Position numbers and translations under genes: made by a program
In this document: one piece after another, positions 36,876-56,261 of the stretch
Numbering within the stretch: the first letter of the stretch is position 1
Layout: each line of letters begins with the position of its first letter
From: Pseudoxanthomonas sp. JBR18
Lineage (GTDB): Bacteria > Pseudomonadota > Gammaproteobacteria > Xanthomonadales > Xanthomonadaceae
NCBI RefSeq assembly: GCF_028198165.1
Contig: NZ_CP116339.1
Coordinates: 1,035,001 to 1,099,000, forward strand
Direction: 5' to 3'
Length of the DNA stretch: 64,000 nucleotides
Notes under the pieces: generated by a model
Told to the model about the DNA's origin: nothing
Databases searched by the model: none
Seen by the model: only the letters and a program-made list of their open reading frames with translations

Positions 36876-36900
36876 CACGGTCACCTTGCTTGCCTTGTCG

Positions 36901-38259
36901 TTAATGCTGAAGCGCTGCGACCTGGCCGCTCGCGCCGCCCTGCGGCGGATCGCGCAGCTCGATGCGCTCGATCTTGCCGACGATCACCAGGTAGCTGACC
37001 ACCACCAGCGCGCCATTGGCCGCCACGAAGGCCAGCGCGGAGGCGAACGAGCCACTGCTGCCGACCAGGTAGCCGATGACGATCGGCGTGGTGATCGAGG
37101 CCAGGTTGCCGAACATGTTGAACATGCCGCCGGCCAGGCCAATGATCTGCTTGGGCGCGGTGTCCGACACCACCGCCCAGCCCAGCGCACCGACGCCCTT
37201 GCCGAAGAAGGCCAGCGCCATCACCGCCACCACGATCCATTCGGTGGACACGTAGTTGGCCACCACGATCACCGCCGATAGGCCCATGCCCAGCACGATC
37301 GGCAGCTTGCGGGCGAACGTCAGCGAGTGGCCGCGGCGCAGCAGCCAGTCCGAGAAGATGCCGCCCAGCACGCCACCGGCGAAGCCGCACAGCGCCGGCA
37401 GCGACGCCACAAAGCCGGCCTTGAAGATGGACATGCCGCGCTCCTGCACCAGGTACACCGGGAACCAGGTCAGGAAGAAGTAGGTCACGCCATTGACGCC
37501 GTACTGACCCAGGTACACGCCGACCATCATGCGCTTGCGCAGCAGCTGCTTGACGTAGAACCACTGGTTGCCCGACTTCTTCTCGCCCGGCTTGTCCATG
37601 TCCACCAACGCGCCACCGGCGGCGATGTAGTCGATCTCGGCCTGGTTGGCGTGGGGGTGCTCACGCGGGTTGTAGATCACCACGCGCCACACCAGCGCGG
37701 CCAGGATCCCCACCGCGCCCATCACCAGAAACACGTGGTGCCAGCCCAGCGTGGCCACCATCCAGCCCATGATCGGGGCGAAGATGACGGTGGCGAAGTA
37801 CTGGGCTGAGTTGAAGAACGCCGAGGCCGAACCGCGCTCCTTGGTCGGGAACCAGGCCGCGGTAATGCGGCTGTTGCCAGGGAACGAGGGCGCTTCTGCC
37901 ACGCCCACCAGGAAGCGCAACAGGAACAGGGCCGGCACCATCATCCCGCCAGGCAGGATGTGGATGGCGCCCTGCAGCGCGGTGAACACCGACCACAGCG
38001 CGATGCCCCAGCCGTAGACCTTCTTGGCACCGAAGCGGTCCAGCAGCCAGCCGCCGGGGATCTGGCAGATCACATAGGCCCAGCCGAACGCCGAGAAGAT
38101 GAAGCCCAGCTCCTCGGCGCTGATGCCAAGCTCCTTCTGCATCGAGGAGCCGGCGATGGACAGCGTGGCGCGGTCGGCGTAATTGATCGTGGTGACGATG
38201 AAGAGGAAGACGACGATCCACAGCCGCATCCGCGTTCTCTTTTCAGACATTGCGTTCAT
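36901..38259 (-). CDS. GudP/GarP-type hexarate MFS transporter
   Basis: A 452-aa MFS protein of the anion:cation symporter (ACS) family with 12 membrane helices. [15 protein letters not shown] in helix 1, [19 protein letters not shown] between helices 2 and 3, and [17 protein letters not shown] are the hallmarks of D-glucarate/D-galactarate transporters GudP/GarP. Placed between the porin and garD genes, it should bring galactarate across the inner membrane by proton symport. ATG 38259 has GGAG upstream. Confidence 0.9.
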
Positions 38260-38284
38260 CTCATGTGCTCCGAGGTCAATGCGA

Positions 38285-39478
38285 TCAGAACGCGATCTGC
38301 ATGCGGCCGGTGATCGCGTCGGTCTCGTCGCGGGTGAGGTGGGCCAAGTGATCCTGGGTCTGGCTGTGGATGTAGTTCAGGCGGAACAGGACGTTCTTGC
38401 TGGCGTAGTAGTTGACGCCTACCGAACTGGCCTTGACCTCGATGTCGCGCGTGGCCTGCTCGCCGTGTGCGGTGTCGTAGCGCAGCGCGACTTCCCAGGC
38501 GCCGTGCTCGCCGATGTTCTCCGGGCGGGTGAAGCGGGCCTTCTTGAAGTCGTAGCCCCGGGTCTGGCCGGTGATGAACCAGCCCACGGTGGCATAGCCG
38601 GTCTTCAGGTCACCGTCCTGCGCACCATCGTCGTAGTGCGCCTTGCCGGCCTCGGACTGCACGTAGAACGGGCCACGCGAGTACGCGACTTCCCCCACGT
38701 ACTTGTTGATGTCCACCCGGCTGCCGTCGTTGAGCGAGATCAGGGTGAAGCGGGACTGGTCGGACAGATGCCCGGCCGCGCGCACCGAGGCGCTGGCGCC
38801 GGTGTAGACATCGTTCTGGTTGCGGCCGATCTCATCGTGGCCACCGCTCACGCCCAGGTGCAGCAGGCCGTCCTGCTTGGGCAGCGGCAGCCAGACCACG
38901 CGCGCCGACTCGCCCAGGCCGCTGTTGCGGTCGGTATCGGTGTTGGCTTCGTTGTAGAGGTTCACCCCGTAGACCCACTGCGCCGTGTTGCCGACCCAGG
39001 AGGCGCCATAGCGATAGCCCAGCGCCTGGGTGTCGGCCACCCACGAGCGCTCCTGCATGGAAGCCCACAAGTCGTCGGTGGTGTACTCCAGCGAGTAGAA
39101 CGGCTTGATCTGACCCACGCTGATCGAGCCGGGACCGAGCTTGTGCGAGATGGCGATGGTCTGCCCGGTCGCCTTGTTGTTGGCGAAGTCGTAATCGATG
39201 ACGTAGCCCCAATCGCCAAGCTTGCCCGAAAAGGCCAGGCGCACGCGGCGCAGCTCGGTGCCGGCCATGTTGTCCTGGCCGCGGTCGTCGTTGTCGAACC
39301 AACCGCCGTCGAACTGCACACGGCCGTGGATGCCGAAGGTGTACTGGCCATCGTCGGACGCAGCGTTGAAGCCATTGCTGTCCAGCTTGGTGTCGGCCTG
39401 CGCCAGCGGCGCGAACAAGGCGCTGGTCATGGCCAGCGTCAACAACGTGGTGGTGCGATAAGGCTTGGACTTCATCAT
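38285..39478 (-). CDS. OprO/OprP-type outer-membrane porin
   Basis: 397 aa with a signal peptide (TLLTLAMTSALFAPLAQA, cleavage near residue 28) and a C-terminal aromatic residue (GRMQIAF), the outer-membrane beta-barrel signal. FGIHGRVQFDGGWFDNDD and LRRVRLAFSGKLGDWGYVIDYDF match the phosphate-selective porin O/P family. In this cluster the likely cargo is an anionic sugar diacid such as galactarate rather than phosphate (inference). It is separated from the upstream dehydrogenase gene by 178 bp with a strong hairpin, so it may have its own level of expression. Confidence 0.88.
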   Translation of the reverse strand: MMKSKPYRTTTLLTLAMTSALFAPLAQADTKLDSNGFNAASDDGQYTFGIHGRVQFDGGWFDNDDRGQDNMAGTELRRVRLAFSGKLGDWGYVIDYDFANNKATGQTIAISHKLGPGSISVGQIKPFYSLEYTTDDLWASMQERSWVADTQALGYRYGASWVGNTAQWVYGVNLYNEANTDTDRNSGLGESARVVWLPLPKQDGLLHLGVSGGHDEIGRNQNDVYTGASASVRAAGHLSDQSRFTLISLNDGSRVDINKYVGEVAYSRGPFYVQSEAGKAHYDDGAQDGDLKTGYATVGWFITGQTRGYDFKKARFTRPENIGEHGAWEVALRYDTAHGEQATRDIEVKASSVGVNYYASKNVLFRLNYIHSQTQDHLAHLTRDETDAITGRMQIAF

Positions 39479-39615
39479 CCCCTCTCCTGACGATGCAGGC
39501 GCGATGCACGCGGCGCCTGGCGATGCGGTGACATGGTGGCGCAGCGGTCAATGGCCTCCCGGCCCGCTGCGTGATCAGGACGCCATCCGGCGCCCGGCTC
39601 TTCGGTGTTGCGTGC

Positions 39616-39650
39616 CGCATGTGCCGATGCGTGAGGCATCGGCGCATGCG
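39616..39650 (-). terminator. Long hairpin between the dehydrogenase and porin genes
   Basis: A 15-bp stem (left arm 39616-39630, right arm 39636-39650, one G-T type mismatch) with loop GTGAG, just downstream of the dehydrogenase stop. No U-tract follows on the minus strand; it may attenuate read-through or protect the upstream mRNA end. Confidence 0.55.
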
Positions 39651-39656
39651 GGAAGA

Positions 39657-41240
39657 TCAGTCCTTGCCCAGCACCCCGTCGCTGCGGCGCCAGATGCCCA
39701 GCGGGTTGCCGTCGGCCAGTGCCTCGGGCAGCAGTTCGGCGAACAGGTCCTGGTAGCAGACCGGGCGCAGGAAGCGCTTGATCGCCAGGGTGCCCACCGA
39801 GGTGCTGCGGCTGTCGGAAGTGGCCGGGAACGGACCGCCATGGACCATCGCATGGCAGACCTCGACGCCGGTCGGCCAGCCATTGGCCAGGATGCGGCCG
39901 GCCTTGCGCTCCAGCACCGGGAGCAGCGCCTTGGCCATGGCCGTGTCGCCCTTGTCCATCTGCAGCGTGGCGGTCAGCTGACCTTCCAGGTGCTCGCTCA
40001 GCGCGATCAGCTGGGCCTGGTCCTTGCAGCGGATCAGCATCGACGAGGCGCCAAACACCTCGGCCTGCAGTGCCTCATCGGCCAGGAAGGCATCGGCGTC
40101 GGTGGAGAACCATGCCGCTTCGCAGCGGTTGGGACCCTCGCCCGGCAGGCCACGCGCCAGCGTAGTCACCTGATCGTGTGCGGCCAGCCTGGCTACGCCA
40201 TCGGCGTAGGCCTGGCCGATGCCAGGAGTCAGCATGACGCCGGCCGGGGCCGCCTTGAGGGCCCGGACGGCCGCGGACACGAAGGTGTCCAGCTCCGGCG
40301 AGTCGATCGCCAGCAGCAGGCCCGGGTTGGTACAGAACTGGCCGGCGCCCATGGTCAGCGAGCCGACGAAGGCCTTGCCCAGCGCCTCGGCGCGCGCGTT
40401 GAGCGCCTCGGGCAGCAGGTAGACCGGATTGATGCTGCTCATCTCGGCATAGACCGGGATCGGCTCGGCGCGCGCGGCCGCGACCTGGCACAGGGCCATG
40501 CCACCAGCGCGCGAGCCGGTGAAGCCCACCGCCTTGATGCGCTTGTCCGAGACCAGCGCGGTGCCGATCTCGTTGCCCGCGCCATACAGCAGGGAGAACA
40601 CGCCCCCGGGCAGGCCGCACTTGGCCACGGCCCTCTGGATGGCGGTGCCGACCAGTTCGGAGGTGCCGGGGTGCGCGTTGTGCGCCTTGACCACCACCGG
40701 GCAGCCTGCGGCCAGGGCCGAGGCGGTGTCGCCACCGGCCACCGAGAAGGCCAGCGGGAAATTGCTGGCACCGAACACGGCCACCGGGCCCAGCGCGATA
40801 TGGCGCTGACGCAGGTCGCTGCGCGGCAGCGGGGCGCGGTCGGGCAGGGCCGGGTCCAGGCGGGCCTCGAGCCAACTGCCTTCGCGCACGACCGAGGCGA
40901 ACAGCTTGAGCTGGCCGACGGTGCGGCCGCGCTCACCTTCCAGGCGTGCACGCGGCAGGCCGGACTCGGCCATGGCGCGCTCGATCAGGTCGTCACCGAT
41001 CGCCAGAATCTCGTCGGCGATGGTCTCCAGGAAGCTCGCGCGAGCCTGCAGCGAGGTTTCACGATAGGCGTCGAAAGCAGCAGCCGCCAGCGCGCAGGCG
41101 CGCTCCAGATCCGCGGCGGTGGCCAGGCCGTAGGCCGGCTCCAAGAAGGCGCCGGTGGAGGGATTGATGCCCTTGACCGTGCCATTGCTGCCCATGATGG
41201 CGCTGGCGCCGATCAGCATGTTTCCGGTGAATGCACCCAT
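39657..41240 (-). CDS. 2-oxoglutarate semialdehyde (2,5-dioxovalerate) dehydrogenase
   Basis: A 527-aa aldehyde dehydrogenase. Its length and sequence ([58 protein letters not shown]) are those of the alpha-ketoglutaric semialdehyde dehydrogenase (KGSADH) type II/III group. The catalytic Cys is C303 ([10 protein letters not shown]) and the general base E266. It oxidises 2,5-dioxovalerate made by KdgD to 2-oxoglutarate, completing the pathway. The start ATG at 41240 shares its A with the kdgD stop (TAATG), so the two are translationally coupled. Confidence 0.93.
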
Positions 41241-42157
41241 TACCTGCGGTCTCCAATCAGCTTGGTGAGGGTTTCGAGTTCTTCGCCGGTCAGGTCGGCC
41301 AGCGGCGTGCGCACCGGGCCGGCGGTGCGACCCACCACGGTCATGCCGGCCTTGACGATGGACACCGCATAGCCGGCGCGGCGGTTGCGCAGCTCGGTGT
41401 AGGGCAGGACGAAGTCGTTGAGTTCGCGGTAGACGTGGGCCACGTCGCGGGCGCGCACGGCCTTGTAGAAGTCCAGCGCCCACTCCGGCAGGAAGTTGAA
41501 GATGGCCGACGAATACGTGGTCACGCCCATCTCCAGGTACGGCAGGGCGAAGGTCTCGGCGGTCGGCAGGCCACCGACGTACAGCAGGCGCTCGCCCAGG
41601 CGCGCGTAGATGCGGGTCATGCGGTCCACGTCGCCCACGCCATCCTTGAAGCCGACCAGGTTGGGGCAGCGCGCGGCGATGCGTTCGACCGCGTTGGCGT
41701 CCAGCTTGCCGTTGGCGCGGCTGTAGACGATCACGCCCAGCTTGGTCGACTTGCACACGCGCTCGACGTGGTCGGCCACGCCACTGGCGTCGCACTCGGT
41801 CAGGTAGGGCGGGAACAGCAGGATGCCGTCGGCGCCGGCGGCCTCGGCGGCCTGGGCCATCTCGATGGCCATCGCCGTGCCATAGCCGGCCGGGGCGATG
41901 ATCGGGGTCTTGGCGCCGGCCTCTTCCACCGCGGCCTTGACCACGCGGTTCACCTCGCCCGGGGTCAGCGAAAACAGTTCGCCGGTGCCGCCGGCCGCGA
42001 ACAGGCCCGAGGCCGGATAGCCGGCCAGCCAACCCAGGTTGTCGCGGTAGGCCACCTCGTCGAAGGAGAAGTCGTCGGCCTTGAAGTGCGTGACCGGGAA
42101 GGACAACAGGCCAGCACCGAGAGCCTGGGCCATTTCCGTGGGGGTGTATTTGCTCAT
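41240..42157 (-). CDS. kdgD: 5-dehydro-4-deoxyglucarate dehydratase (decarboxylating)
   Basis: A 305-aa DapA-family aldolase-fold enzyme that converts 5-keto-4-deoxyglucarate to 2,5-dioxovalerate, water and CO2. Schiff-base lysine K171 lies in [11 protein letters not shown], the assisting Tyr is Y145 (IVYSRANG), and [12 protein letters not shown] is the carboxylate-binding loop. These residues and the KDGDH-type FPVTHF start separate it from dihydrodipicolinate synthase. ATG 42157 follows GAAGG. It is the promoter-proximal gene of the operon, divergent from a LysR gene. Confidence 0.94.
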
Positions 42158-42348: not shown

Positions 42349-42484
42349 ACGCGGAGGCCCGACCGCGCCCTCGGCCACTCCCCGCGGTGCCGTGTGGCCC
42401 TGGCAGGATTCACTGGGCTCGGCTTGTCCTCCACCATGCGCGAACGCCACGATTCGTGCGTCGCGCCATCCAGGACGGGTATCA

Positions 42485-43402
42485 ATGTTCGACCTCAACC
42501 AGTTGCGCTGCTTCGTCACGGTGGCCGAGGAACTGCACTTCAGCCGGGCGGCCGCGCGCCTGCACATGACCCAGCCGCCGCTGAGTCGGCAGATCCAGTT
42601 GCTGGAGCACAACATCGGTACCGCGCTGTTTACCCGCAGCAACCGCGTGGTGCGGCTGACCCCGGCCGGGCGCACCCTGCTGCCGGAGGCGCGCACGATC
42701 CTGCGCCTGGCCGAGAGCGCCAGCCTCTCGGCCAGGCGTGTGGGCCTGGGCGAGGCCGGCAGCGTCAGCATCGGCTTCACCGCCGCGGCCGGCTACCGGT
42801 TCCTGCCTGAGGCCATCGCCCACCTGCGCAAGGCCCTGCCGGATATCGACCTGCAGCTCAAGGAAATGGTCAGCCATTCCCAGTTGGAGGCCCTGGACAA
42901 CGGCCGCCTGGACCTGGGCCTGCTGCGCCCGCCGATCACCCGCGACGGCATGCGCAGCCGCTGCGTGGTGCGCGAAACGCTCATGGCCGCCCTGCCCCAG
43001 GACCATCCGCTGGCGCAGGAGCCCAGCCTGAAGCTGCGCGATTTCGACCGCCAGCCGCTGGTGATGTATTCGCCGGACGAGGCGCGCTACTTCTACGAGT
43101 TGGTCGGCCGCATCTTCAGCCGCGTGGGCGTGGCGCCCCATTACGAGCAGCACGTCAGCCAGGTGCATTCGGTGCTGTCGCTGGTGCGCGCCGGACTGGG
43201 CGTGGCCCTGGTTCCCGAGGCCGCCAGCAGCCTGCGCTACGAGGGCATCGTCTACCGCAACGTCACCGGCCTGGCGCCGGCGCGTCCGGTGGAGCTGCAC
43301 ATGGTGTGGAAGGACGACAACGACAACCCGGCGTTGCCGCAACTGCTGCCGCTGATCGGGCAGGAGCGCACCGCGCCCCAGCCGGCCGGAGCGGCCAGCT
43401 GA
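42485..43402 (+). CDS. LysR-family regulator of the galactarate operon (predicted)
   Basis: A 305-aa LysR-type regulator: HTH in LNQLRCFVTVAEELHFSRAA and MTQPPLSRQIQLLEHNIGTA, effector domain from about residue 93 (VSIGFTAAAGYRFLPEAI), VRAGLGVALVPEAA near the end. It resembles the BenM/CatR branch that senses organic acids. ATG 42485 sits at the start of the HTH; upstream in-frame codons to 42392 are not LysR-like. Divergent from kdgD, so the galactarate operon is its likely target. Confidence 0.92.
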   Translation: MFDLNQLRCFVTVAEELHFSRAAARLHMTQPPLSRQIQLLEHNIGTALFTRSNRVVRLTPAGRTLLPEARTILRLAESASLSARRVGLGEAGSVSIGFTAAAGYRFLPEAIAHLRKALPDIDLQLKEMVSHSQLEALDNGRLDLGLLRPPITRDGMRSRCVVRETLMAALPQDHPLAQEPSLKLRDFDRQPLVMYSPDEARYFYELVGRIFSRVGVAPHYEQHVSQVHSVLSLVRAGLGVALVPEAASSLRYEGIVYRNVTGLAPARPVELHMVWKDDNDNPALPQLLPLIGQERTAPQPAGAAS

Positions 43403-43450: not shown

Positions 43451-44713
43451 TTATTCCCGGACCGGGTCGTACTGCTTGTCGCGGATGAAGATCGCCGGGA
43501 TCAGGCCGCAAATCAGGTAGGCGGCGCCCACCAGCAGGAAGCCAAAGCCGATCGAGTCACGCGTGGCGAAGAAGCCGATCACCGCCGGCGACAGCGCCGC
43601 GCCGATGCGGCCCACGTTGTAGGCCCCGCCCACCGCCGAGCCGCGGTACTTGGCCTCGAAGCTCTCGGTCATGTAGGTCGCGTTGACGCTGTAGGGCACG
43701 CCGTAGAGGAAGCCGAAGACAATCAACAACCACAAAATGTTCTGCGGATTGTTGAACAGCACGATGATCGGCAGGAACAGCGCCGTGCCCAGGCAGCCGA
43801 AGGCGAAGACCGTGCGCCGGCCGACCTTGTCGGCGACGTAGCCGGCCAGCACCTTGCCCAGGATCGAGGCACCGTAGGTGCCCACCAGGAAGGTGGTCAT
43901 GGTCTTGAACTTCATCCCCAACTCGCTTTCCAGATAGCTGGGCATCCAGTTGTTGACGCCGTAGTTTCCGAACTGCAGGAACCCGGCCGTCACCGCCCAC
44001 AGCGCGAACATGCGCGCGGCCTTGGGGCTGGAGAAGATCTGGTTGAACTTGCCCTTCTCCTTGACCAACGTCGCGCCGCTGGCCGCAAGGCGCTTGGCCT
44101 GCTCGCGCACGCGCAGCCAGGTGGCCGGCTCGGGCACCATCTTCCACATCAGCAGCGCCATCGCGATCGGCACCGCGCCGGTGTAGAACAGCGGGCGCCA
44201 GCCATAGCTGGGCAGGATCCACTTGGCCAGCAGCGTGGCCACGATGTAGCCCACCGACCAGCCGGCCTGAAGACTGCCCAGCACAGTGTTGCGATAGCGG
44301 GTGGGCACGTATTCGGCCATCAGCGTGTTGCACACCACGTAGACCGAGCCCAGGCCCAGCGCCGAGACCCCGCGCACCACCGCGAACTCCACATAGCTGT
44401 GGGTGAAGCCCAGGAAGATCGTGCCGATGCTGAAGAGCAGCACGCTGAAGACCACCGCCTTGACCCGACCCAGGCGATCGGCCAGCCAGCCGCCGTAGAT
44501 GCCCCCCACCGCCATGCCCGCTAGCGTGTAGCTGGCCAGGCTGCCGGCCTCCAGCGAGGTCAGGTTGAACTCGTCCTTGAGGCTGCTCAGGCTGTAGGCC
44601 AGCAGCATCACGTCGGCCCCGTCGATGACCATCGTCAGGAAGCAGAATACGAAGGCCGTGATCCAGATCCTGTTGCCTGTCGCGTTGACCCCGGTTTCCA
44701 CGCTGTTGGACAT
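43451..44713 (-). CDS. MFS transporter, AAHS (aromatic acid/H+ symporter)-like
   Basis: A 420-aa, 12-helix MFS permease. Helix 1 carries the acidic motif MVIDGADVMLLAYSL, the loop after helix 2 has GWLADRLGRVKAV, and the second half GYVADKVGRRTVF. This is the pattern of PcaK/BenK/MhpT-type carboxylate symporters. It is divergent from the hglS-like gene over 333 bp, so it may import the acid that feeds that pathway (inference). GGGGTGGAG precedes ATG 44713. An extension to 44954 is rejected. Confidence 0.88.
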   Translation of the reverse strand: MSNSVETGVNATGNRIWITAFVFCFLTMVIDGADVMLLAYSLSSLKDEFNLTSLEAGSLASYTLAGMAVGGIYGGWLADRLGRVKAVVFSVLLFSIGTIFLGFTHSYVEFAVVRGVSALGLGSVYVVCNTLMAEYVPTRYRNTVLGSLQAGWSVGYIVATLLAKWILPSYGWRPLFYTGAVPIAMALLMWKMVPEPATWLRVREQAKRLAASGATLVKEKGKFNQIFSSPKAARMFALWAVTAGFLQFGNYGVNNWMPSYLESELGMKFKTMTTFLVGTYGASILGKVLAGYVADKVGRRTVFAFGCLGTALFLPIIVLFNNPQNILWLLIVFGFLYGVPYSVNATYMTESFEAKYRGSAVGGAYNVGRIGAALSPAVIGFFATRDSIGFGFLLVGAAYLICGLIPAIFIRDKQYDPVRE

Positions 44714-45046
44714 CTCCACCCCTTTTGGACTTTGTTGAATCGATTGAAAAATCGCCATGCGCAAGTCGCCGCACATGGCGCCCGGGCGATGCGATCCGCC
44801 TGGGCTGCATGCAAAAAATGCGTCCATCGTTTCCCGGGGCCGGCCTGCGCGGCAAGCGACTTTGCGGAATCCCCGCATTCCAATCGCGCATGACCAGGAG
44901 ATCGGCGAGTGAGGCCCCAGGCCCGTCGCCGATGGAGATCACGGGACATTCCATCGAGGAATGATTTATTTCCCAGATCTCGCTTGCCAGTTGCCCCTGG
45001 CCCTTACAGCATTACGTCCCTGACCCTGATCAAGCCAGCCATACCA
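44714..45046. other. Divergent control region MFS / hglS (333 bp)
   Basis: No gene seen. Contains two GGAAT/ATTCC dyads: GGAAT-(6)-ATTCC at 44866-44881 and CATTCC-ATCGA-GGAATG at 44947-44963, and an AT-rich patch at 44960-44975. Confidence 0.55.
44947..44963. promoter_or_regulatory. LysR-type box upstream of hglS
   Basis: CATTCC-ATCGA-GGAATG is a perfect 6-bp dyad whose core TTCC-N5-GGAA fits the LysR T-N11-A consensus. A related dyad lies 66 bp upstream. Two LysR genes follow hglS. Confidence 0.5.
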
Positions 45047-46432
45047 ATGTCGAATAGCTCATTCGTGGACCGCGATCTATTGCGCGCCCGTTTCTCTGAT
45101 GCGATGTCGCAGATGTATCGCCGTGAGGTGCCCCAGTACGGCACCTTGCTCGAACTGGTGGCCGACACCAATCACGCCGTCCTCGCGGCCGATCCCGCCC
45201 TGGCCGAACGCCTGCGCGCCAGTGGCGACCTGGAGCGCCTGTCGGGCGAGCGCCACGGCGCCATCCGCGTGGGCACGCCGGAGGAACTGCGCGACATCCG
45301 TCGCCTGTTCGCGGTGATGGGCATGACCGCCGTGGGCTACTACGACCTCAGCCCGGCCGGCGTGCCGGTGCACTCCACCGCCTTCCGCGCCGTGCATGAG
45401 GACGCCCTGCGGATCAGCCCATTCCGCGTGTTCACCTCGCTGCTGCGCCTGGAACTGGTCGAGGACACCGCGCTGCGCGAACTGGCCGCCGAGCTGCTGG
45501 CCAAACGCCGCATCTTCACCGACCGCGCGCTGGCCCTGATCGACCAGTGCGAACAGGCCGGCGGCCTGACCGAGGCCGAGGGCGAGGAATTCATCGCCGA
45601 GGCGCTGCACACCTTCCGTTGGCACGCCCAGGCCACCGTCACCGCCGCGCAATACAAGGCCCTGCACGACCAGCACCGCCTGGTCGCCGACGTGGTGGCC
45701 TTCAAGGGCCCGCACATCAACCACCTCACGCCGCGCACGCTGGATATCGACGCGGTCCAGCGCGACATGCCCGCGCGCGGCATCAGCCCCAAGGCGGTGA
45801 TCGAGGGCCCGCCGCGCCGCGCCTGCCCCGTGCTGCTGCGCCAGACCAGCTTCAAGGCCTTGCAGGAACAGGTCGCCTTCGTCGACCAGCCCGACGCCCC
45901 CGGCGCGCATACCGCCCGCTTCGGCGAGATCGAGCAGCGCGGCGTGGCCCTCACCCCAAAGGGACGCCAGACCTACGACGCCCTGCTGGCCGCCGTGCGC
46001 GCGGAATTTGGCGGCACGCCCGACGAGGACAGCGCGCAACGCTACTACGCCCTCCTGGACAAGCATTTCCAGGCCCTGCCCGATGACGAGGCCGGCCTGC
46101 GTGCGCAGGGACTGGCCTACTTCACCTACCACGTCATCGATGCCGGTCGCGCCGGACAGGCGCGCGACATCGAGGCACTGGTGGCCAATGGCACGGTGGG
46201 CTTCACCCCCATCGTGTACGAGGACTTCCTGCCGGTCAGCGCCGCGGGGATCTTCCAGTCCAACCTTGGCGAAGGCGCGCGCAATGACCACCTGGCCAGC
46301 TCCAACCAGGCGCAGTTCCATGCCGACCTGGGCGCCGAGGTGCTCGACGAACTGGCGCTGTACGCGCAGACGCAGGAACGCTCCATCGCCCGCTGCCTGT
46401 CCGCGCTTGGCATCGCCTCCGCGGCCGCCTAG
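45047..46432 (+). CDS. hglS: 2-oxoadipate dioxygenase/decarboxylase (DUF1338, HglS-like)
   Basis: 461 aa, full length for the DUF1338 (PF07063) family. In Pseudomonas putida HglS is an Fe(II) enzyme that converts 2-oxoadipate and O2 to D-2-hydroxyglutarate and CO2, in lysine breakdown. The residues I recall as essential there, metal ligands H70, H226, E294 and substrate Arg R74, fall at the same numbers here (SGERHGAIRV, GPHINHLTPR, RFGEIEQRG). ATG 45047 gives the standard N-terminus SFVDRDLLRARFSDAMSQMY; an in-frame extension to 44909 is Arg-rich and unlike the family. The next plus-strand enzyme gene encodes the dehydrogenase for its product. Confidence 0.92.
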   Translation: MSNSSFVDRDLLRARFSDAMSQMYRREVPQYGTLLELVADTNHAVLAADPALAERLRASGDLERLSGERHGAIRVGTPEELRDIRRLFAVMGMTAVGYYDLSPAGVPVHSTAFRAVHEDALRISPFRVFTSLLRLELVEDTALRELAAELLAKRRIFTDRALALIDQCEQAGGLTEAEGEEFIAEALHTFRWHAQATVTAAQYKALHDQHRLVADVVAFKGPHINHLTPRTLDIDAVQRDMPARGISPKAVIEGPPRRACPVLLRQTSFKALQEQVAFVDQPDAPGAHTARFGEIEQRGVALTPKGRQTYDALLAAVRAEFGGTPDEDSAQRYYALLDKHFQALPDDEAGLRAQGLAYFTYHVIDAGRAGQARDIEALVANGTVGFTPIVYEDFLPVSAAGIFQSNLGEGARNDHLASSNQAQFHADLGAEVLDELALYAQTQERSIARCLSALGIASAAA

Positions 46433-46510
46433 GCTGCGCGCTCGCCCTACCTTGTCGGTGATCGCGCCGGCATGGTCCGGGCGGCGCCAGCCCCGCTGGT
46501 GAGTGTTTCG

Positions 46511-47425
46511 ATGAAGCAGAAAAAGCTCCTGCCCTCCATGGTCTCGTTGCAGTGCTTCGAGTCCGCGGCCCGGCATATGAGCTTCACCAACGCCGCCCAG
46601 GAGCTCAACCTCACCCAGAGCGCGGTGAGCAAGCAGGTCGCCCAGCTGGAGCAGGCCTTGCAACGCCGGCTGTTCGAACGGGTGCGCAACGGCCTGGCCC
46701 TCACCCCGGCCGGCGAGCTCTACCACGCCGAGGTCAGCCAGGTCCTCAGCCAGACCGACATCGCCAGCCGCGCGGTGCTGTCCTTCGGCGGAGAGACCGA
46801 GGTGCTGCGCATCGCCACCCAGCCGACCTTTGGCGCGCGCTGGCTGATCCCGGCGCTGGCCGGGTTCGGTGACCAGCATCCACACCTGCGCCTGAGCATC
46901 CGTAACGCGCTGGAACCCTTCGACCTGGTCCGCGCTACGGCCGATATCGCCTTCTTCTACGGCGCCGGCTCCTGGCCGGGCGCGGTGTGCGAGGCACTGT
47001 TCCGCGAAACCGTGGTGGCGGTGTGCACGCCGTTGTTCCTGCAGACCCACCCGGTCAGCGCCGCCGAGGACCTCACCCGCAGCACGCTGCTGCAGTGCAC
47101 CTCACGCCCGGAGGCCTGGTACGACTGGTTCGGCGGCCAGGGCATCACGTCCACCAACAGCTACCACGGCCCGCAGTTCGACACCTTCGACCTGTGCATC
47201 CGCGCCGCCCTGGCCGGTTATGGCGTGGCGCTGGTGCCGCGCTTCATGGTGGCCGACGAGCTGCGTCAGGGCACGCTGGTCATTCCATGGGCGCATGCCC
47301 GGCCCGGCAGCGGCGCCTACTACCTGGCCCACGCCGAGCACACCGGCGAGCTGCCCAAGGTCCGCGCCTTCGTCGAATGGATCCGCACCCGAGCCGCCGG
47401 CGAGCGCGAGCCTGCCGCCGACTGA
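46511..47425 (+). CDS. GcvA-like LysR regulator (following hglS)
   Basis: A 304-aa LysR protein of the GcvA/AmpR branch: LPSMVSLQCFESAARHMSFT, LTQSAVSKQVAQLEQAL, then a ligand domain from about residue 95 (LRIATQPTFGARWLIPAL) and a GYGVALVPRFMV segment. ATG 46511 was preferred over an extension to 46472. It follows hglS by 78 bp in the same direction and converges with a second GcvA-like gene. Control of hglS is the simplest reading. Confidence 0.9.
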   Translation: MKQKKLLPSMVSLQCFESAARHMSFTNAAQELNLTQSAVSKQVAQLEQALQRRLFERVRNGLALTPAGELYHAEVSQVLSQTDIASRAVLSFGGETEVLRIATQPTFGARWLIPALAGFGDQHPHLRLSIRNALEPFDLVRATADIAFFYGAGSWPGAVCEALFRETVVAVCTPLFLQTHPVSAAEDLTRSTLLQCTSRPEAWYDWFGGQGITSTNSYHGPQFDTFDLCIRAALAGYGVALVPRFMVADELRQGTLVIPWAHARPGSGAYYLAHAEHTGELPKVRAFVEWIRTRAAGEREPAAD

Positions 47426-47431
47426 GCCGGT

Positions 47432-47449
47432 GCGCCCCGATCAGGGCGC
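47432..47449. terminator. Hairpin between the two convergent LysR genes
   Basis: GCGCCC-CGATCA-GGGCGC at the convergent stops, overlapping the last codons of the minus-strand gene. No U-tract. Confidence 0.45.
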
Positions 47450-48337
47450 TGGCGGCAGGTCCGCCAGCAACCAGTCGCGGAAGGCCTGCAGCGCGGGCAG
47501 TGCAGCCAGGCGACGCGGATAGGCCAAGTGATAGGTGCGCTGGCTGCGCAGCGGCTCGCCGACCTGCACCAGGCTGCCTGCGCGCAGTTCGTCCTCGACC
47601 AGCAGCTGCGGCACCAGGCCCACGCCGATGCCCGCACGCACGGCCTGGATCAGGTGCGAGGTCAGCTCGAAGGTCGGCCCATCGCGCATGGCCTGCAGCG
47701 GCAGGCCGTGTCGCGCCCACCACTGCGTCCACAGCGGCGGATGGCTGGCCACGCGCAGCAGCGACTGCGCGGCGATCACTTCCGGCGCGGGTGCGGGTTC
47801 TCCGCCGACCACCGCCGGACTGGCGACGACCACCATCGATTCGGCCATCAGCGGATGCACCTGCACGTCGCCGCCCTCGGCCAGGGCCACGCCGATCGCG
47901 GCGTCCACCTGCGCCAGCTCGAAATCCACCGGCTTGATGTGCGAATGAATGTGCACCTGCACCCCAGGGTGCGCGGCGTAGAAGGCATGCAGGCGCGGCA
48001 GCAGCCACTTGGAGCCGAAGGTCGGCAGCAGCGCCAGGCGCAGCGCGCCGCCGCCTTCGCCGTGCGACAGCACCTGCAGGGTGGCCTGGCGGACCTGGGC
48101 AAGCGCCCCGTCCAGCCCGCGATGGTAGAGGCGGCCGACCTCGGTCAGGGCGATGCTGCGGCCTTCGCGCGCGAACAGGCGCACGCCCAGCTGTGTCTCC
48201 AACGCCTGCACCTGGCGGCTGACCGCGCCCTGGGTCAGCGACAGCTCGCGCGCCGCGCGGGTGAAGCTGGCGTGCCGGGCCGCCGCGTCGAAGGCCAGCA
48301 GCAGGGACATGGAGGGGGTCAGTCGACGGCTTTGCAT
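47441..48337 (-). CDS. GcvA-like LysR regulator (divergent from ydiJ)
   Basis: A 298-aa paralogue of the neighbouring LysR: SLLLAFDAAARHASFTRAAR, LTQGAVSRQVQALETQLGVR, LRLALLPTFGSKWLLPRL, AGIGVGLVPQLLVED. It is divergent from the ydiJ-like gene over 97 bp, so that gene is the probable target. The gap has repeated ATGCAT words (48340s and 48434-48452) but no clean T-N11-A site that I can single out. Confidence 0.9.
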   Translation of the reverse strand: MQSRRLTPSMSLLLAFDAAARHASFTRAARELSLTQGAVSRQVQALETQLGVRLFAREGRSIALTEVGRLYHRGLDGALAQVRQATLQVLSHGEGGGALRLALLPTFGSKWLLPRLHAFYAAHPGVQVHIHSHIKPVDFELAQVDAAIGVALAEGGDVQVHPLMAESMVVVASPAVVGGEPAPAPEVIAAQSLLRVASHPPLWTQWWARHGLPLQAMRDGPTFELTSHLIQAVRAGIGVGLVPQLLVEDELRAGSLVQVGEPLRSQRTYHLAYPRRLAALPALQAFRDWLLADLPPAP

Positions 48338-48434
48338 GCATAAAGCTCATGGATGAGGCACCAACTTTACGCTTGATCGCCTCCGCAGCGCAGGAGGAAA
48401 ATCCTGGATCCCAAGGTGCGCCATCGCATGACCC

Positions 48435-51400
48435 ATGCATGCGATGCATGTGGCACCCCAGGCTTTCCAAGGACGTCCCGTGCTTGCTCCACTCCCGGTC
48501 TCCCATCCCACCGCCGCCCCGTATGTCGCCTTTCTGGACGCGCTGCGGACTGCGGGCTTCCGCGGCGAGATCCGCCAGGACCACGCCAGCCGCACGGTGC
48601 TGGCCACGGACAACTCCATCTATCAGCGCTTCCCGCAGGCGGCGGTGTTTCCCCGCGATGCCGACGATGTGGCGCTGGTCGCCCTGCTGCTGGCCCGGCC
48701 CGAGCACCGCCAGGTCACCGTGGCCCCGCGCGGCGGCGGCACCGGCACCAACGGCCAATCGCTCACCGACGGCGTGGTGGTGGACCTGTCGCGGCATATG
48801 AACCAGATCCTGGAGATCGACCCGGAGCAGCGCTGGGTGCGGGTGCAAGCCGGCGTGGTCAAGGACCAACTCAATGCCGCGCTCAAGCCCTACGGCCTGT
48901 TCTTCGCCCCGGAGCTGTCCACCTCCAACCGCGCCACCATCGGCGGCATGGTCAGCACCGACGCCAGCGGCCAGGGCAGCTGCACCTACGGCAAGACCCG
49001 CGACCACGTGCTGGCATTGGACACGGTCCTGCTGGGCGGCGAGCGCCTGCACAGCCAGCCGCTGGCGCCCGAGGCGCTGGCTACCCAGGCCGCGCGCCAG
49101 GATCGCGTGGGCGAGGCCTACCGCTGCGCCTCTCGCATCGCCGACGAACAGGGCGAGCTGATCCAGGCGAAGTTCCCCAGGCTCAATCGTTGCCTGACCG
49201 GCTACGACCTGGCCCACCTGGGCACGGCCGACGGCCGCTTCGACCTCAACAGCGTGCTGTGCGGGTCGGAGGGCACGCTGGGGTTCGTGGTGGAAGCCAA
49301 GCTCAACGTGCTGTCCATCCCCAAGTACGCGGTGCTGGTCAATGTGCGCTACGGCGCCTTCATGGATGCGCTGCGTGATGCGCGGCACCTGGTCGCGCTG
49401 GCGCCGTTGTCCATCGAGACGGTGGACTCCAAGGTGCTGATGCTGGCCATGCAGGACATCGTCTGGCATAGCGTGGCCGAGTATTTCCCGCAGGAAGGCG
49501 ATATTCCCACCCAAGGCATCAACCTGGTGGAGTTCAGCGGCGATGACCCGACCGAAGTCGATGCGCGGGTGGCCGCCTTTGTCGAGCACCTGCGCACCGA
49601 TGCCAGCGTGGTCCGCCTGGGTCACACGCTGGCCACCGGCAACGCGGCGGTCAACACGGTCTACGGGATGCGCAAGCGCGCGGTCGGCCTGCTGGGCAAC
49701 GTGCAGGGCGAGGCGCGGCCACAGCCGTTCGTGGAGGACACCGCGGTGCCGCCGGAACACCTGGCCGACTACATCGCCGAGTTCCGCGCCCTGCTGGATC
49801 GTCACGGGCTGGCCTATGGCATGTTCGGCCACGTCGATGCCGGCGTGCTGCACGTGCGCCCGCTGCTGGACATGAAGGACCCGGCACAGGCCGCGCTGGT
49901 ACGGCCGATCTCCGACGCGGTCGCTGCGCTGACCCAGCGCTACGGTGGGCTGCTGTGGGGCGAGCACGGCAAGGGCGTGCGCTCGGAATACGCACCGGCC
50001 TACTTCGGCGAGCTGTATCCGTCCCTGCAGGCGCTCAAGCGCGCCTTCGACCCGCACAACCAGCTCAATCCCGGCAAGATCGCCACGCCCGCCGCCGACG
50101 CCGCACCGCTGTTGCGCGTGGACCAGGTGCCGATGCGTGGCCAGCTGGATCGCACCATTCCCACCGCGGTGTGGCAGGACCACGGCGCGGCGATGCACTG
50201 CAACGGCAACGGCGCCTGCTACAACTTCGATCTGGACGACCCGATGTGTCCGTCGTGGAAGGCCACGCGCGACCGGGTGCAATCGCCCAAGGGCCGCGCC
50301 TCGCTGCTGCGCGAATGGCTGCGCCGCCAGCACGCGGCCGGCACCGACCTGACCACACCGCCGCCGAGCGGGCCCGGCACCTTCCTGCGCACGCTGCCGG
50401 CGCGCTGGCGCAACAGCCGCCGGGAACCGGAGGATTTCTCGCACGAGGTCTACGGCGCGATGGCCACCTGCCTGGCGTGCAAGTCCTGCGCGGGCCAGTG
50501 CCCGGTGAAGGTCAACGTGCCGGAGTTCCGCTCGCGCTTCCTCGAGTTCTATCACGCGCGTTACCTGCGACCGCTGCGCGATTACCTGATCGGCTCGCTG
50601 GAATTCACCCTGCCGCTGTTCGCGCGCGTGCCCGGCCTCTATAACGCCACGCTCGCCTGGGGCCCGGCCGCGCGCGTGCTGGCCGGGCCGGTGGGCATGG
50701 TCGACAGCCCGCGCCTGGGCCGCTTCGACCTGGACGCGACCTGCCGACAGTGGAACGTCACCACGGCCACGCCGCAGGCGCTGGCCGCGCTAAGCGAGGC
50801 CGAGCGCGCCCGCAGCGTGGTGCTGGTGCTCGATGCCTTCACCCGCTACTTCGAGACGCCGCTGCTGGCCGCGTGCATCGAGCTGTCCGCACGGCTGGGC
50901 CAACGCGTGTTCCTGGCGCCGTATCTCGCCAATGGCAAGCCGCTGCAGGTGCAGGGCTTTTTGCCCGCCTTCGAGCGCACGGCGCGGCGCAATGCGGCGA
51001 TGTTGTCGGCGCTGGCCGCGCACCGCGTGCCGCTGGTGGGCATCGACCCGGCCATGACCCTGACCTACCGTCAGGAGTACACCAAGCTCAAGGGCCTGGA
51101 CGTGCCCAGGGTGCAGCTGCTGCAGGAATGGCTCACCGATGTATATGCAGCGCGCGACGCTGCGACCGAGTCATCTGCCCTGCGCTACCGCCTGATGGCG
51201 CATTGCACGGAGAAGACCAACGCCGCGGCCAGCGTGACCCAGTGGACCGAGGTCTTCGCCCGCGCCGGGCTGTCGCTGGCGGTGCAGAAGACCGGCTGCT
51301 GCGGCATGTCCGGCACCTACGGCCATGAGGCACGCAATGTCGAGACCTCGCGGCGCATCTTCGACCAATCCTGGGCGCCCGCACTGGCGATGGCCGATGC

Positions 51401-51524
51401 GCCCGAAGCCCTGGCCACCGGCTACTCGTGCCGCAGCCAGGTCAGCCGCCTGCAGTCCGACACGCTGCGCCATCCGGTGCAGGCCCTGCTCGACGTGCTG
51501 CGCGGACAGGCATCCGCCGCCTGA
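48435..51524 (+). CDS. ydiJ: D-2-hydroxyglutarate dehydrogenase, FAD/Fe-S (YdiJ-like)
   Basis: 1029 aa (E. coli YdiJ 1018). Oxidises D-2-hydroxyglutarate to 2-oxoglutarate, passing electrons to the respiratory chain. The N-terminal FAD domain has TDNSIYQRFP, PRGGGTGTNGQS, ELSTSNRATIGGM and DASGQGSCTYGKTRDHVL; the FAD_oxidase_C part has YGMFGHVDAGVLHVRP and YGGLLWGEHGKG; a ferredoxin-like segment has CLACKSCAGQCPVK (C679, C682, C685, C689); the C-terminal CCG domain has KTGCCGMSGTYGHE and ATGYSCRSQV. These match YdiJ closely from memory. A second start at 48444 is possible. The gene lies next to hglS, whose product is its substrate. Confidence 0.94.
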   Translation: MHAMHVAPQAFQGRPVLAPLPVSHPTAAPYVAFLDALRTAGFRGEIRQDHASRTVLATDNSIYQRFPQAAVFPRDADDVALVALLLARPEHRQVTVAPRGGGTGTNGQSLTDGVVVDLSRHMNQILEIDPEQRWVRVQAGVVKDQLNAALKPYGLFFAPELSTSNRATIGGMVSTDASGQGSCTYGKTRDHVLALDTVLLGGERLHSQPLAPEALATQAARQDRVGEAYRCASRIADEQGELIQAKFPRLNRCLTGYDLAHLGTADGRFDLNSVLCGSEGTLGFVVEAKLNVLSIPKYAVLVNVRYGAFMDALRDARHLVALAPLSIETVDSKVLMLAMQDIVWHSVAEYFPQEGDIPTQGINLVEFSGDDPTEVDARVAAFVEHLRTDASVVRLGHTLATGNAAVNTVYGMRKRAVGLLGNVQGEARPQPFVEDTAVPPEHLADYIAEFRALLDRHGLAYGMFGHVDAGVLHVRPLLDMKDPAQAALVRPISDAVAALTQRYGGLLWGEHGKGVRSEYAPAYFGELYPSLQALKRAFDPHNQLNPGKIATPAADAAPLLRVDQVPMRGQLDRTIPTAVWQDHGAAMHCNGNGACYNFDLDDPMCPSWKATRDRVQSPKGRASLLREWLRRQHAAGTDLTTPPPSGPGTFLRTLPARWRNSRREPEDFSHEVYGAMATCLACKSCAGQCPVKVNVPEFRSRFLEFYHARYLRPLRDYLIGSLEFTLPLFARVPGLYNATLAWGPAARVLAGPVGMVDSPRLGRFDLDATCRQWNVTTATPQALAALSEAERARSVVLVLDAFTRYFETPLLAACIELSARLGQRVFLAPYLANGKPLQVQGFLPAFERTARRNAAMLSALAAHRVPLVGIDPAMTLTYRQEYTKLKGLDVPRVQLLQEWLTDVYAARDAATESSALRYRLMAHCTEKTNAAASVTQWTEVFARAGLSLAVQKTGCCGMSGTYGHEARNVETSRRIFDQSWAPALAMADAPEALATGYSCRSQVSRLQSDTLRHPVQALLDVLRGQASAA

Positions 51525-53211: not shown

Positions 53212-54504
53212 TTATGCCGCCTTGTCGGCGGTGAACTGTTCTTCCTCGGTCGAGCCGGTCAGCGCCGTGGTCGAGGACTGGCCCTGCTGGATGGCCTGGG
53301 TCACCGCATCGAAATACCCGGTGCCGACCTCGCGCTGGTGCTTGACCGCGGTGAAGCCCTTGGGCGCGGCGGCGAATTCGGCCTCCTGCAGTTCGACGAA
53401 GGCGCTCATCTGATTGCGCGCGTAGCCGTGGGCCAGGTTGAACATCGAGTAGTTCAGACTGTGGAAGCCGGCCAGGGTGATGAACTGGAACTTGTAGCCG
53501 TAGCTGGCGATTTCCTTCTGGAACTTGGAGATGGTCGCGTCGTCCAGGTTCTTCTTCCAGTTGAAGCTGGGCGAGCAGTTGTAGGCCAGCAGCTTGCCCG
53601 GGAACTTGGCATGGATCGCTTCGGCGAATTTACGCGCGAACTCCAGGTCCGGCTTGCCGGTCTCGCACCAGATCAGGTCGGCGTAAGGCGCATAGGCCAG
53701 GCCGCGGCTGATGGCCTGGTCCAGGCCCTTGTGGGTCTTGTAGAAGCCCTCCACGGTGCGCTCGCCGGTGGTGTGCGGCTTGTCGTTGGCATCGATGTCG
53801 CTGGTCAGCAGGTCGGCGGCCTCGGCATCGGTGCGGGCGATCAGCACGGTCGGCACGCCCATCACGTCGGCCGCCAGGCGCGCGGCGTTCAACTTCTCCA
53901 CGGCCTCGCGGGTGGGGACCAGCACCTTGCCGCCCATGTGCCCGCACTTCTTGACCGAGGCCAGCTGGTCCTCGAAGTGCACGCCCGAGGCGCCGGCCTC
54001 GATCATGGCCTTCATCAGCTCGAAGGCATTCAGCACGCCGCCAAAGCCGGCCTCGGCATCGGCCACGATGGGCTGCAGGAAGTCCACGCTGTCATCGCCC
54101 TCGGCATGGGACAGCTGGTCGGCGCGCAGCAAGGTGTTGTTGATGCGCTTGACCACCGCCGGCACCGAGTCGGCCGGGTACAGCGACTGGTCCGGATACA
54201 TCTGCCCGGCCAGGTTGGCATCGGCGGCCACCTGCCAGCCGGACAGGTAGATCGCCTTCAGCCCGGCCTTGACCTGCTGCATGGCCTGGTTGCCGGTCAG
54301 CGCGCCCAGCGCGTTGACGAAGTCCTCGGTGTGCAGGGAGCTCCAGAGCTTATCCGCACCCAGCTTGGCGATGGAGTGCTCGACCGGGATCGTGCCGCGC
54401 AGGCGCACCACGTCGGCCGCGGTGTAGTTGCGGGTGATGCCCTTCCAGCGCGGATTGGTGTCCCAGTCCTTCTGGATCTCGGCGGCGCTCGGCAGCTTGC
54501 TCAT
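53212..54504 (-). CDS. aceA: Isocitrate lyase
   Basis: Splits isocitrate into glyoxylate and succinate in the glyoxylate shunt. 430 aa, like the E. coli enzyme (434). The catalytic motif [10 protein letters not shown] has C187; [12 protein letters not shown] precedes it, [12 protein letters not shown] supplies metal/substrate residues, and [12 protein letters not shown] is the signature loop. ATG 54504 gives the usual [14 protein letters not shown] start; an extension to 54561 is not family-like. Encoded 110 bp after aceB on the same strand. Confidence 0.97.
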
Positions 54505-54614
54505 GGTGTCGTCCTCGTGTGGATCGTGCGATGTCGTGGAATGCGGCGGCCGACCCGACATGCCGGGCCAGGCGCTGCAGATGAATCCGGAAAAACGTGT
54601 GCGCTGCGGCGGCG

Positions 54615-56261
54615 TCAGTCGATCAGCGCGTAGGCCGGCAGGGTCAGGAACTCGGCCAGCGTGTCGCGGCGTGAGAGTTCATCGAGCAGCGCGATGGCCT
54701 CGGAGACCTTGGCCGCGCCCGGCACGCCGGCGCCGTGTCCAAGCACGGTGGGCAGGTGCTTGAGGGTGGCCTGCAGCAGCGCCAGGTCGATGGCGGTGCC
54801 GTCGTCCAGGTGCAGTCCCTCGGTGTGCAGCCACTGCCACAGCTGGGTGCGCGAGATCTCGGCGGTGGCCGCGTCCTCCATCAGCCAGTGGATCGGAACG
54901 CAGCCGTTGCCGTCCAGCCAGGCGGCCAGGTAGCGCACGCAGACCTCGACGTTGCCTTCGAACCCGGCGCGGGTGATGGTGCCGGTGGACGGCCGGATCA
55001 GGTCGTCGCGGGTCACGTGCACGTCGGCGCGCGCCACGGCGTGCTGGTTCGGCTGCGGCATGTGCGCGTCGAAGATCGCGCGGGCCACCGGGATCAGCGC
55101 CGGATGTGCGACCCAGGTGCCGTCATGGCCTGCGCTGACCTCGCGCAGCTTGTCGGCGCGCACCCGGGCCATGGCCTGCTCGTTGGCGGCCGCGTCGCCG
55201 TTGATCGGGATCTGTGCGGCCATGCCGCCCATGGCATGCGCAGCGCGCCGGTGGCAGGTCTGGATCAGCAGTTCCGAGTACGCCTTCAGGAACGGCTGGG
55301 TCATAGTGACCTGGCCGCGCTCGGGCAGCACCCGGTCGGCGTGGGCGCGAAAGGTCTTGATGTAGGAAAAGATGTAGTCCCAACGGCCGCAGTTCAGGCC
55401 GACGATGCGGCTGCGCAGCGCGTGCAGGATCTCGTGCATCTCGAAAGCCGCCGGCAGCGTCTCGATCAGCACGGTGACCTTCATCTGCCCCTGCGGCAGG
55501 CCCAGGGTGGCCTCGATGTGCGACAGCGCGGTCTCCCACAGCGCGGCCTCCTCCATCGACTGCAGCTTGGGCAGGTAGAAGTACGGCCCGCGTTCCTTGG
55601 TCTGCAGCGCCCGCGCGTTGTGGAAGGCGAAGGTCGCCACGTCGAACAGGCCGCCGGCCATCGGCGCGCCATCGACCAGCACGTGTTTCTCGTCCAGGTG
55701 CCAGCCGCGCGGGCGCACGATCAGCACCGCCTGCTCGGCGAATGGCTTGAGCGCGTAGTGCTTGCCCGGCTTGTCGCCACGGGCCGGCGTGTCGAACTGC
55801 AGGGTGCCGGCGACCGCGTCGATCAGGGCGCGCTGGCCGGTGATCAGGTTGGTCCAGGTCGGCGAGGTGGAATCCTCGAAGTCGGCCATGAACACCTTGG
55901 CGCCGGAGTTCAGCGCGTTGATCACCATCTTCGGGTCGGTCGGTCCGGTGATCTCCACGCGGCGGTCGGTCAGCGCGGCCGGGATCGGGGCGACGGTCCA
56001 GTCGCCCTCGCGGATCTGTGCGGTGTCGGCGCGGAAGTCCGGCAGGGCGCCGGTGTCGAACTCGGCCTGGCGGGCGGCGCGGGCGGCCAGGCGGGCCTGG
56101 CGCTCCGGCTCGATGGCCCGGTGCAGCGAGGTCAGCAGCCCCAGCAGGCCCGGCGGCAGCAAGGCGTCCTGACCGGGCACCTGGGCGGTGAGGGCGATGC
56201 CGGGCGTGGCCCCGGTCAGGGCCGAATCCCGGGGCGGCAGGGCGAAAGCGGTCGCGGACAT
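54615..56261 (-). CDS. aceB: Malate synthase A
   Basis: Condenses glyoxylate with acetyl-CoA to malate, the second shunt reaction. 548 aa, typical of the AceB isoform (about 530-550) and shorter than GlcB. Visible segments: [74 protein letters not shown] (signature) and the C-terminal [10 protein letters not shown] region. ATG 56261. First gene of the aceBA operon, divergent from a LysR gene. Confidence 0.97.

Follow-up and report, generated by a model that had tools for sequence, protein, structure and literature searches.

A probable horizontally assembled gene block for 2-oxoadipate conversion to 2-oxoglutarate in Pseudoxanthomonas sp. JBR18

Introduction

Do five consecutive genes of Pseudoxanthomonas sp. 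JBR18, encoding two enzymes, two LysR regulators and a carrier, constitute a single metabolic unit, and, if so, how did its parts come together? The genes were proposed as a block in a first-pass annotation of the window (the whole 64-kb stretch of DNA analysed here), and all five were confirmed in it at 43451..51524, arranged as follows:

43451..44713, minus strand: MFS carrier, AAHS/DcaK-like, probable C6 dicarboxylate symporter (TIGR00895, 340.7 bits; relatives in adipate-type clusters)
44714..45046, no strand: divergent intergenic region of 333 bp between the carrier gene and hglS (from the sequence)
44947..44963, no strand: CATTCC-N5-GGAATG palindrome, weak candidate LysR operator (T-N11-A), picked post hoc
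45047..46432, plus strand: hglS, predicted 2-oxoadipate dioxygenase/decarboxylase (NF049974, PF07063, residues)
46511..47425, plus strand: lysR1, regulator with relatives in plasmid hglS clusters (profile and plasmid loci)
47441..48337, minus strand: lysR2, regulator whose nearest relatives were found divergent to ydiJ (profile and plasmid loci)
48435..51524, plus strand: ydiJ, predicted FAD/Fe-S D-2-hydroxyglutarate dehydrogenase (NF049975, Pfam domains)

The start positions of the carrier (44713), HglS (45047) and lysR1 (46511) are the most likely ones as judged from the sequence. Nothing stands out in the base composition of the block, and the upstream region of the carrier is common to hglS only. 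A galactarate/glucarate-to-2-oxoglutarate cluster adjoins the block (35334-42157, minus strand, with a divergent LysR gene at 42392-43402, plus strand), containing garD, a TIGR00893-type MFS carrier, a porin-like gene, an aldehyde dehydrogenase gene and kdgD; two separate routes to 2-oxoglutarate lie side by side in the window. A tRNA-Ser called by ARAGORN inside this aldehyde dehydrogenase gene (40883-40980, minus strand) is probably spurious.

The explanation that we consider probable is that the block serves as the lower branch of lysine/2-aminoadipate catabolism and was assembled horizontally, HglS acting before YdiJ under LysR control and in the company of a C6 carrier. HglS would convert 2-oxoadipate to D-2-hydroxyglutarate and CO2, and YdiJ would convert the latter to 2-oxoglutarate, passing electrons onward via its FAD and Fe-S domain. 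The effectors, operators and cargo of this scheme we infer only: LysR1, a candidate sensor of 2-oxoadipate or a precursor, most likely controls hglS in response to that effector, and perhaps the carrier too across the shared divergent region; LysR2, a candidate sensor of D-2-hydroxyglutarate, most likely controls ydiJ with that compound as effector; and the compound imported by the carrier is most likely a C6 dicarboxylate, the foremost candidates being 2-oxoadipate and adipate.

Identity of the two enzymes

Family models and conserved residues identify the predicted HglS as a 2-oxoadipate dioxygenase/decarboxylase. Specifically, the protein scores 734.1 bits against the cut-off of 550 of the NCBIfam equivalog NF049974 and 541 bits with Pfam PF07063, and its closest PDB entry is P. 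putida HglS (6w1g/6w1h), which together with 2rjb makes up the two solved relatives found by sequence. Residues H70, R74, H226 and E294 are all in place (we take H70, H226 and E294 to be the numbers of the His-His-Glu triad), as are V397 and S398, corresponding to 402 and 403 in 6w1g, so that the Val/Ser loop is intact. The portion of the P. putida study consulted describes the His-His-Glu metal triad together with Arg74, Val402 and Ser403, and reports both that 2-oxoadipate was the sole substrate used in the panel tested and that the R74A variant was inactive (PMC7286885). YdiJ is likewise identified by its family model as a predicted D-2-hydroxyglutarate dehydrogenase, scoring 1545.5 bits against the cut-off of 1350 of the equivalog NF049975; its FAD domains lie above their cut-offs, its Fer4_8 domain reaches 25.8 against 27, and the GlpC model NF008369 gives 112 against 278. 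The initial assignments of an HglS-type DUF1338 enzyme with its key residues and of a YdiJ-type D-2-hydroxyglutarate dehydrogenase are thus borne out.

With regard to ancestry, an HglS tree was built from 50 rows, omitting one cut family sequence (L027). On a sample that drew on 20 of the 119 further best hits listed, a choice that favours a Pseudomonas-type grouping, the window HglS groups with Pseudomonas-type sequences and not with those of its own family: it falls within a clade of 21 rows (Pseudomonas, Wohlfahrtiimonas, Neisseriaceae and others; support 100/99), while 24 family sequences form a separate clade (support 99/96).

Linkage of hglS and ydiJ

The first-pass annotation had named beforehand a lack of conservation of the block across Xanthomonadaceae relatives as refuting, and such conservation is ruled out by the genomes surveyed: PF07063 occurs in 26 of 149 family genomes and ydiJ in two (E<=1e-100, with up to five candidates scored in each genome), with both enzymes in one. 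At the DNA level, the hglS part of the block is matched in 22 of 37 genus relatives, and the longest other match among the matches listed spans about 340 bases. Within 20 kb around hglS in 19 relatives (two of these loci, L029 and L046, being near a contig end), no ydiJ, carrier, lysR1 or lysR2 was seen beside hglS; one relative (L031) has a single LysR match, at 26% identity and 7 kb from hglS.

Farther afield, the pairing recurs. Among 369 genomes of the class, YdiJ was found in 18 (E<=1e-150), HglS in 15 (E<=1e-60) and both in six. The two genes are adjacent on the same strand in two of the five other genomes that have both, hglS and the ydiJ-type gene overlapping, when read from the first ATG, by 8 bp in G482 (L056) and by 1 bp in G333 (L057); in the remaining three they lie about 250 kb or more apart (G450, G542) or on separate contigs (G308). 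A plasmid of Paracoccus sp. Arc7-R13 (L079) carries consecutive genes for a LysR protein, HglS, an AASA dehydrogenase, an aminotransferase and an enzyme of the YdiJ type. On a plasmid of Paracoccus AK26, the gene after hglS encodes a FAD enzyme whose closest match is human D-2-hydroxyglutarate dehydrogenase. The YdiJ-type proteins paired with HglS in L056, L057 and L079 share only 36-40% identity with the window YdiJ, and none of them reaches the YdiJ cut-off (1013, 1012 and 846 against 1350). The Arc7-R13 cluster resembles the block in uniting HglS with a lysR1-type regulator and with an enzyme of the YdiJ type (37% identical to the window YdiJ, under the cut-off), but differs from it in having upstream lysine enzymes and in being without a carrier of the JBR18 type. 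A scan of named genomes with HglS returned one locus, in Oceanisphaera, without ydiJ. One or two in-frame stops were observed inside the ydiJ matches of G430 and G525 and the hglS match of G533.

On the strength of this recurrent linkage, the HglS and YdiJ steps are probably coupled, in keeping with the earlier claim that the two enzymes are sequential, the first making the substrate of the second. Gene order, through such pairing, provides evidence that enzymes of the YdiJ type act on the product of HglS. Among the closest known systems is the HglS route of P. putida (PP_5260; 6w1g) in D-lysine catabolism, which the block resembles in its HglS equivalog and identical active-site residues, and from which it differs in holding the dehydrogenase and carrier genes in one block; in P. 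putida, hglS and ydiJ are presumably at separate loci. There, the HglS product is reportedly passed to a YdiJ-type dehydrogenase, and work in that species is said to have joined the two steps already, so that the present pairing extends this point and does not open it. The HglS/YdiJ chemistry is already known, and similar gene pairings occur elsewhere.

Regulators and the candidate operator

The LysR1 and LysR2 proteins are 38% identical, and the best model of both is GcvA (NF008352), with scores of 271.3 and 252.5. Their earlier description as two paralogous GcvA-like regulators is upheld by the best model and by their mutual identity, though both scores fall under the GcvA cut-off of 288.

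The two genes have preferred enzyme partners on plasmids. In 16 plasmid hglS loci hand-picked from 76 records (L063, L064, L077-L080, L094-L103), a lysR1-type gene (36-43% identity) is present in 14, whereas L094 and L100 showed none; the L080 copy is oriented divergently from the aldehyde dehydrogenase gene of its cluster. No LysR of these 16 loci is closer to lysR2 than to lysR1. Conversely, a lysR2-type gene (57-58% identity) stands divergent to ydiJ in four of five plasmid ydiJ loci taken from 186 records (L058-L060, L076, L081). These four, from Burkholderia pyrrocinia, Comamonas endophytica and Pseudomonas mandelii (L058-L060, L076), are all without hglS, and two of them are strains of one species; they share the lysR2-ydiJ layout of JBR18 at 57-58% and 69-72% identity, and differ from it in having neither hglS nor a carrier of the JBR18 type within the stretches fetched. 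Two of them (L059, L076) have an additional LysR gene, 28-29% identical to lysR1 and several kb away. The order LysR-LysR-ydiJ in Burkholderia was considered as the same arrangement and rejected, the first LysR there having no match to lysR1. In genome loci, a lysR1-type gene was found beside hglS in none of 22 (L002, L028-L046, L056, L057) and a lysR2-type gene beside ydiJ in none of 11 (L047-L057). The proposal that each LysR gene stands beside its own enzyme gene therefore holds where the regulators occur, as on plasmids, but is not general. The block looks to have been assembled from two regulator-enzyme units, and the preferred partners of the two LysR genes on plasmids are a new point.

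The possibility that upstream regions of hglS genes have a LysR operator in common was considered and set aside, since the palindrome at 44947-44963 is not clearly conserved and was a post hoc choice. It is the sole match in 64 kb, with 0.03 expected, having been picked after being seen. In a test covering 12 other lysR-hglS gaps, with four further plasmid hglS loci outside it, the candidate lies within one mismatch in two; in control upstream regions of 11 family hglS genes the best match has two mismatches. An apparent match in Rhizobium was dropped for overlapping the LysR start codon. In the lysR2-ydiJ gap, slight conservation was seen near the LysR start only.

Supply of 2-oxoadipate and the carrier

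From the lack of lysine genes in the window, the first-pass annotation had argued for direct import. When the block was compared with lysine-type hglS clusters, the AASA/P6C dehydrogenase gene was absent from its cluster and lay outside the window. Of the 16 plasmid hglS loci, 14 have an aldehyde dehydrogenase annotated in the cluster, the exceptions being L078, which lacks one, and L098, which is without annotation; the three enzymes that were scanned (L063, L064, L079) are L-piperidine-6-carboxylate dehydrogenases above cut-off. The JBR18 genome does, however, encode one L-piperidine-6-carboxylate/AASA dehydrogenase (NF050084, E<=1e-200; G000:C1:29291-30709; about 765.5 bits against a cut-off of 730), 1.05 Mb from the block, as do 143 of 149 family genomes. 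Because this gene is present elsewhere in the genome, internal supply of 2-oxoadipate is plausible and the missing lysine genes are no argument for import; that part of the earlier reasoning falls.

Regarding the carrier, the AAHS family model TIGR00895 is the best match, in agreement with the AAHS-type transporter first proposed, but its score of 340.7 bits is under the cut-off of 418.55. Its relatives, among the best 119 of 1228, are 64-74% identical, and all organism names given are Pseudomonas. Eight carrier contexts were fetched, of which six hold adipate-type beta-oxidation clusters with carriers 50-67% identical to that of JBR18, as recognized by annotation (L061, L062) or by reading translated frames (L069, L070, L072, L073); a 3-oxoadipyl-CoA thiolase model is above cut-off in L069 and L072, and the thiolase frame was not called in L070. 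The other two contexts are another acyl-CoA cluster (L065) and an unannotated stretch (L071). The genes for adipate beta-oxidation are given as dcaAKIJP in the part of the literature source used (PMC12543098). The likeness to the carriers of the six clusters extends over nearly the whole protein, and the block differs from them in that no adipate genes are seen beside the JBR18 carrier. The name of the adipate carrier we take to be DcaK.

Given these six relatives, it is reasonable to guess at a C6 diacid as the cargo, which lends modest support to the suggested transport of a C6 acid and leaves 2-oxoadipate itself unproven. A screen of the 369 class genomes (E<=1e-100) found the carrier in the JBR18 genome only, and screening 194 genomes from a different order yielded four matches; the carrier-bearing G636 and G712, two of the genomes behind the fetched contexts, are without HglS, which occurs in one of 25 genomes of their genus. 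No carrier of the JBR18 type was found near hglS in the 22 other genome loci or the 16 plasmid loci. The attachment of a likely C6-diacid carrier to hglS is a further new point.

Weighing the alternatives

The adjoining galactarate cluster gives rise to two other readings. According to one, the carrier belongs to that cluster or imports adipate, and is unrelated to HglS, a reading to which we assign a substantial chance, if somewhat short of an even one. The adipate-type contexts of six of the eight fetched relatives speak for it, as do the roughly 1.3 kb that separate the start of kdgD from the 3' end of the carrier gene and the absence of such a carrier from every other fetched hglS locus. 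Nevertheless, an MFS carrier (484.5 against the TIGR00893 cut-off of 395) and a LysR gene already belong to the galactarate cluster, the LysR gene being placed on the opposite strand between that cluster and the carrier in question, and the upstream region of the carrier is shared with hglS alone. That the carrier is instead a dedicated importer of 2-oxoadipate, or of a related C6 keto diacid, under LysR1, making the block a self-contained scavenging unit, appears rather unlikely; if true, external 2-oxoadipate, leaked for example by plants or fungi, would be turned directly into 2-oxoglutarate, bypassing intracellular lysine degradation. A brief literature search returned no title on a 2-oxoadipate importer, and the carrier provides a testable candidate for one. 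According to the other reading, HglS acts on hydroxylated 2-oxoadipate of the galactarate pathway in place of the plain compound. The intermediate concerned, 5-keto-4-deoxyglucarate, is by established chemistry a dihydroxy derivative of 2-oxoadipate, and garD and kdgD adjoin the block. Yet we regard this reading as highly improbable, for the checked metal- and 2-oxoadipate-binding residues of HglS are retained, KdgD is available to consume the intermediate, relatives of hglS are found in lysine-type clusters, and the panel described in the consulted portion of the published study records activity on 2-oxoadipate only (PMC7286885).

A further reading concerns the dehydrogenase, which might be a housekeeping enzyme that removes a D-2-hydroxyglutarate by-product of SerA, its position near hglS being a coincidence of insertion between two independent regulator-enzyme units. 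As far as the source consulted in part goes, deletion of ydiJ in E. coli and P. ananatis leads to build-up of D-2-hydroxyglutarate, the role of YdiJ there being to clear this compound, with SerA as its expected source (PMC9504171). The occurrence of ydiJ with a divergent lysR2-type gene and without hglS in P. mandelii, B. pyrrocinia (two strains) and C. endophytica also favours such a role. So does the finding that a FAD-only D2HGDH-like gene, present in five of five sampled genus mates (the G016 copy being nearest to 3pm9 and human D2HGDH), was not found in JBR18 at E<=1e-40, with 11 of 20 candidates scored; ydiJ may accordingly have replaced it. This absence is, however, dependent on the threshold, for the 73 matching family genomes lie at 1e-41 to 1e-52, apart from one hit at 2.5e-73; in a search by guessed synteny, ten further genome stretches neither matched the gene nor were syntenic with the region that holds it in the relatives. 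Against a housekeeping role stand the overlapping pairs of hglS and ydiJ-type genes and the plasmid cluster found elsewhere, as well as the rarity of ydiJ, which is in two of 149 family genomes (E<=1e-100), the one that also has hglS having both adjoining. This reading is accordingly possible but doubtful, and a lower branch of lysine/2-aminoadipate catabolism acquired by horizontal assembly is preferred.

Other observations

In the region that holds the AASA dehydrogenase gene (L068, G000:C1:21000-40999), a cyanophycinase (246 against 126.6 bits) and a cyanophycin synthetase (1001.9 against 850) are encoded in one row with the dehydrogenase and with another synthetase-like ligase that scores under its cut-off. 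Just past the block, a glyoxylate shunt is encoded at 53212-56261 on the minus strand, its enzymes isocitrate lyase and malate synthase A scoring 811 and 690 bits against cut-offs of 562 and 594.5, respectively.
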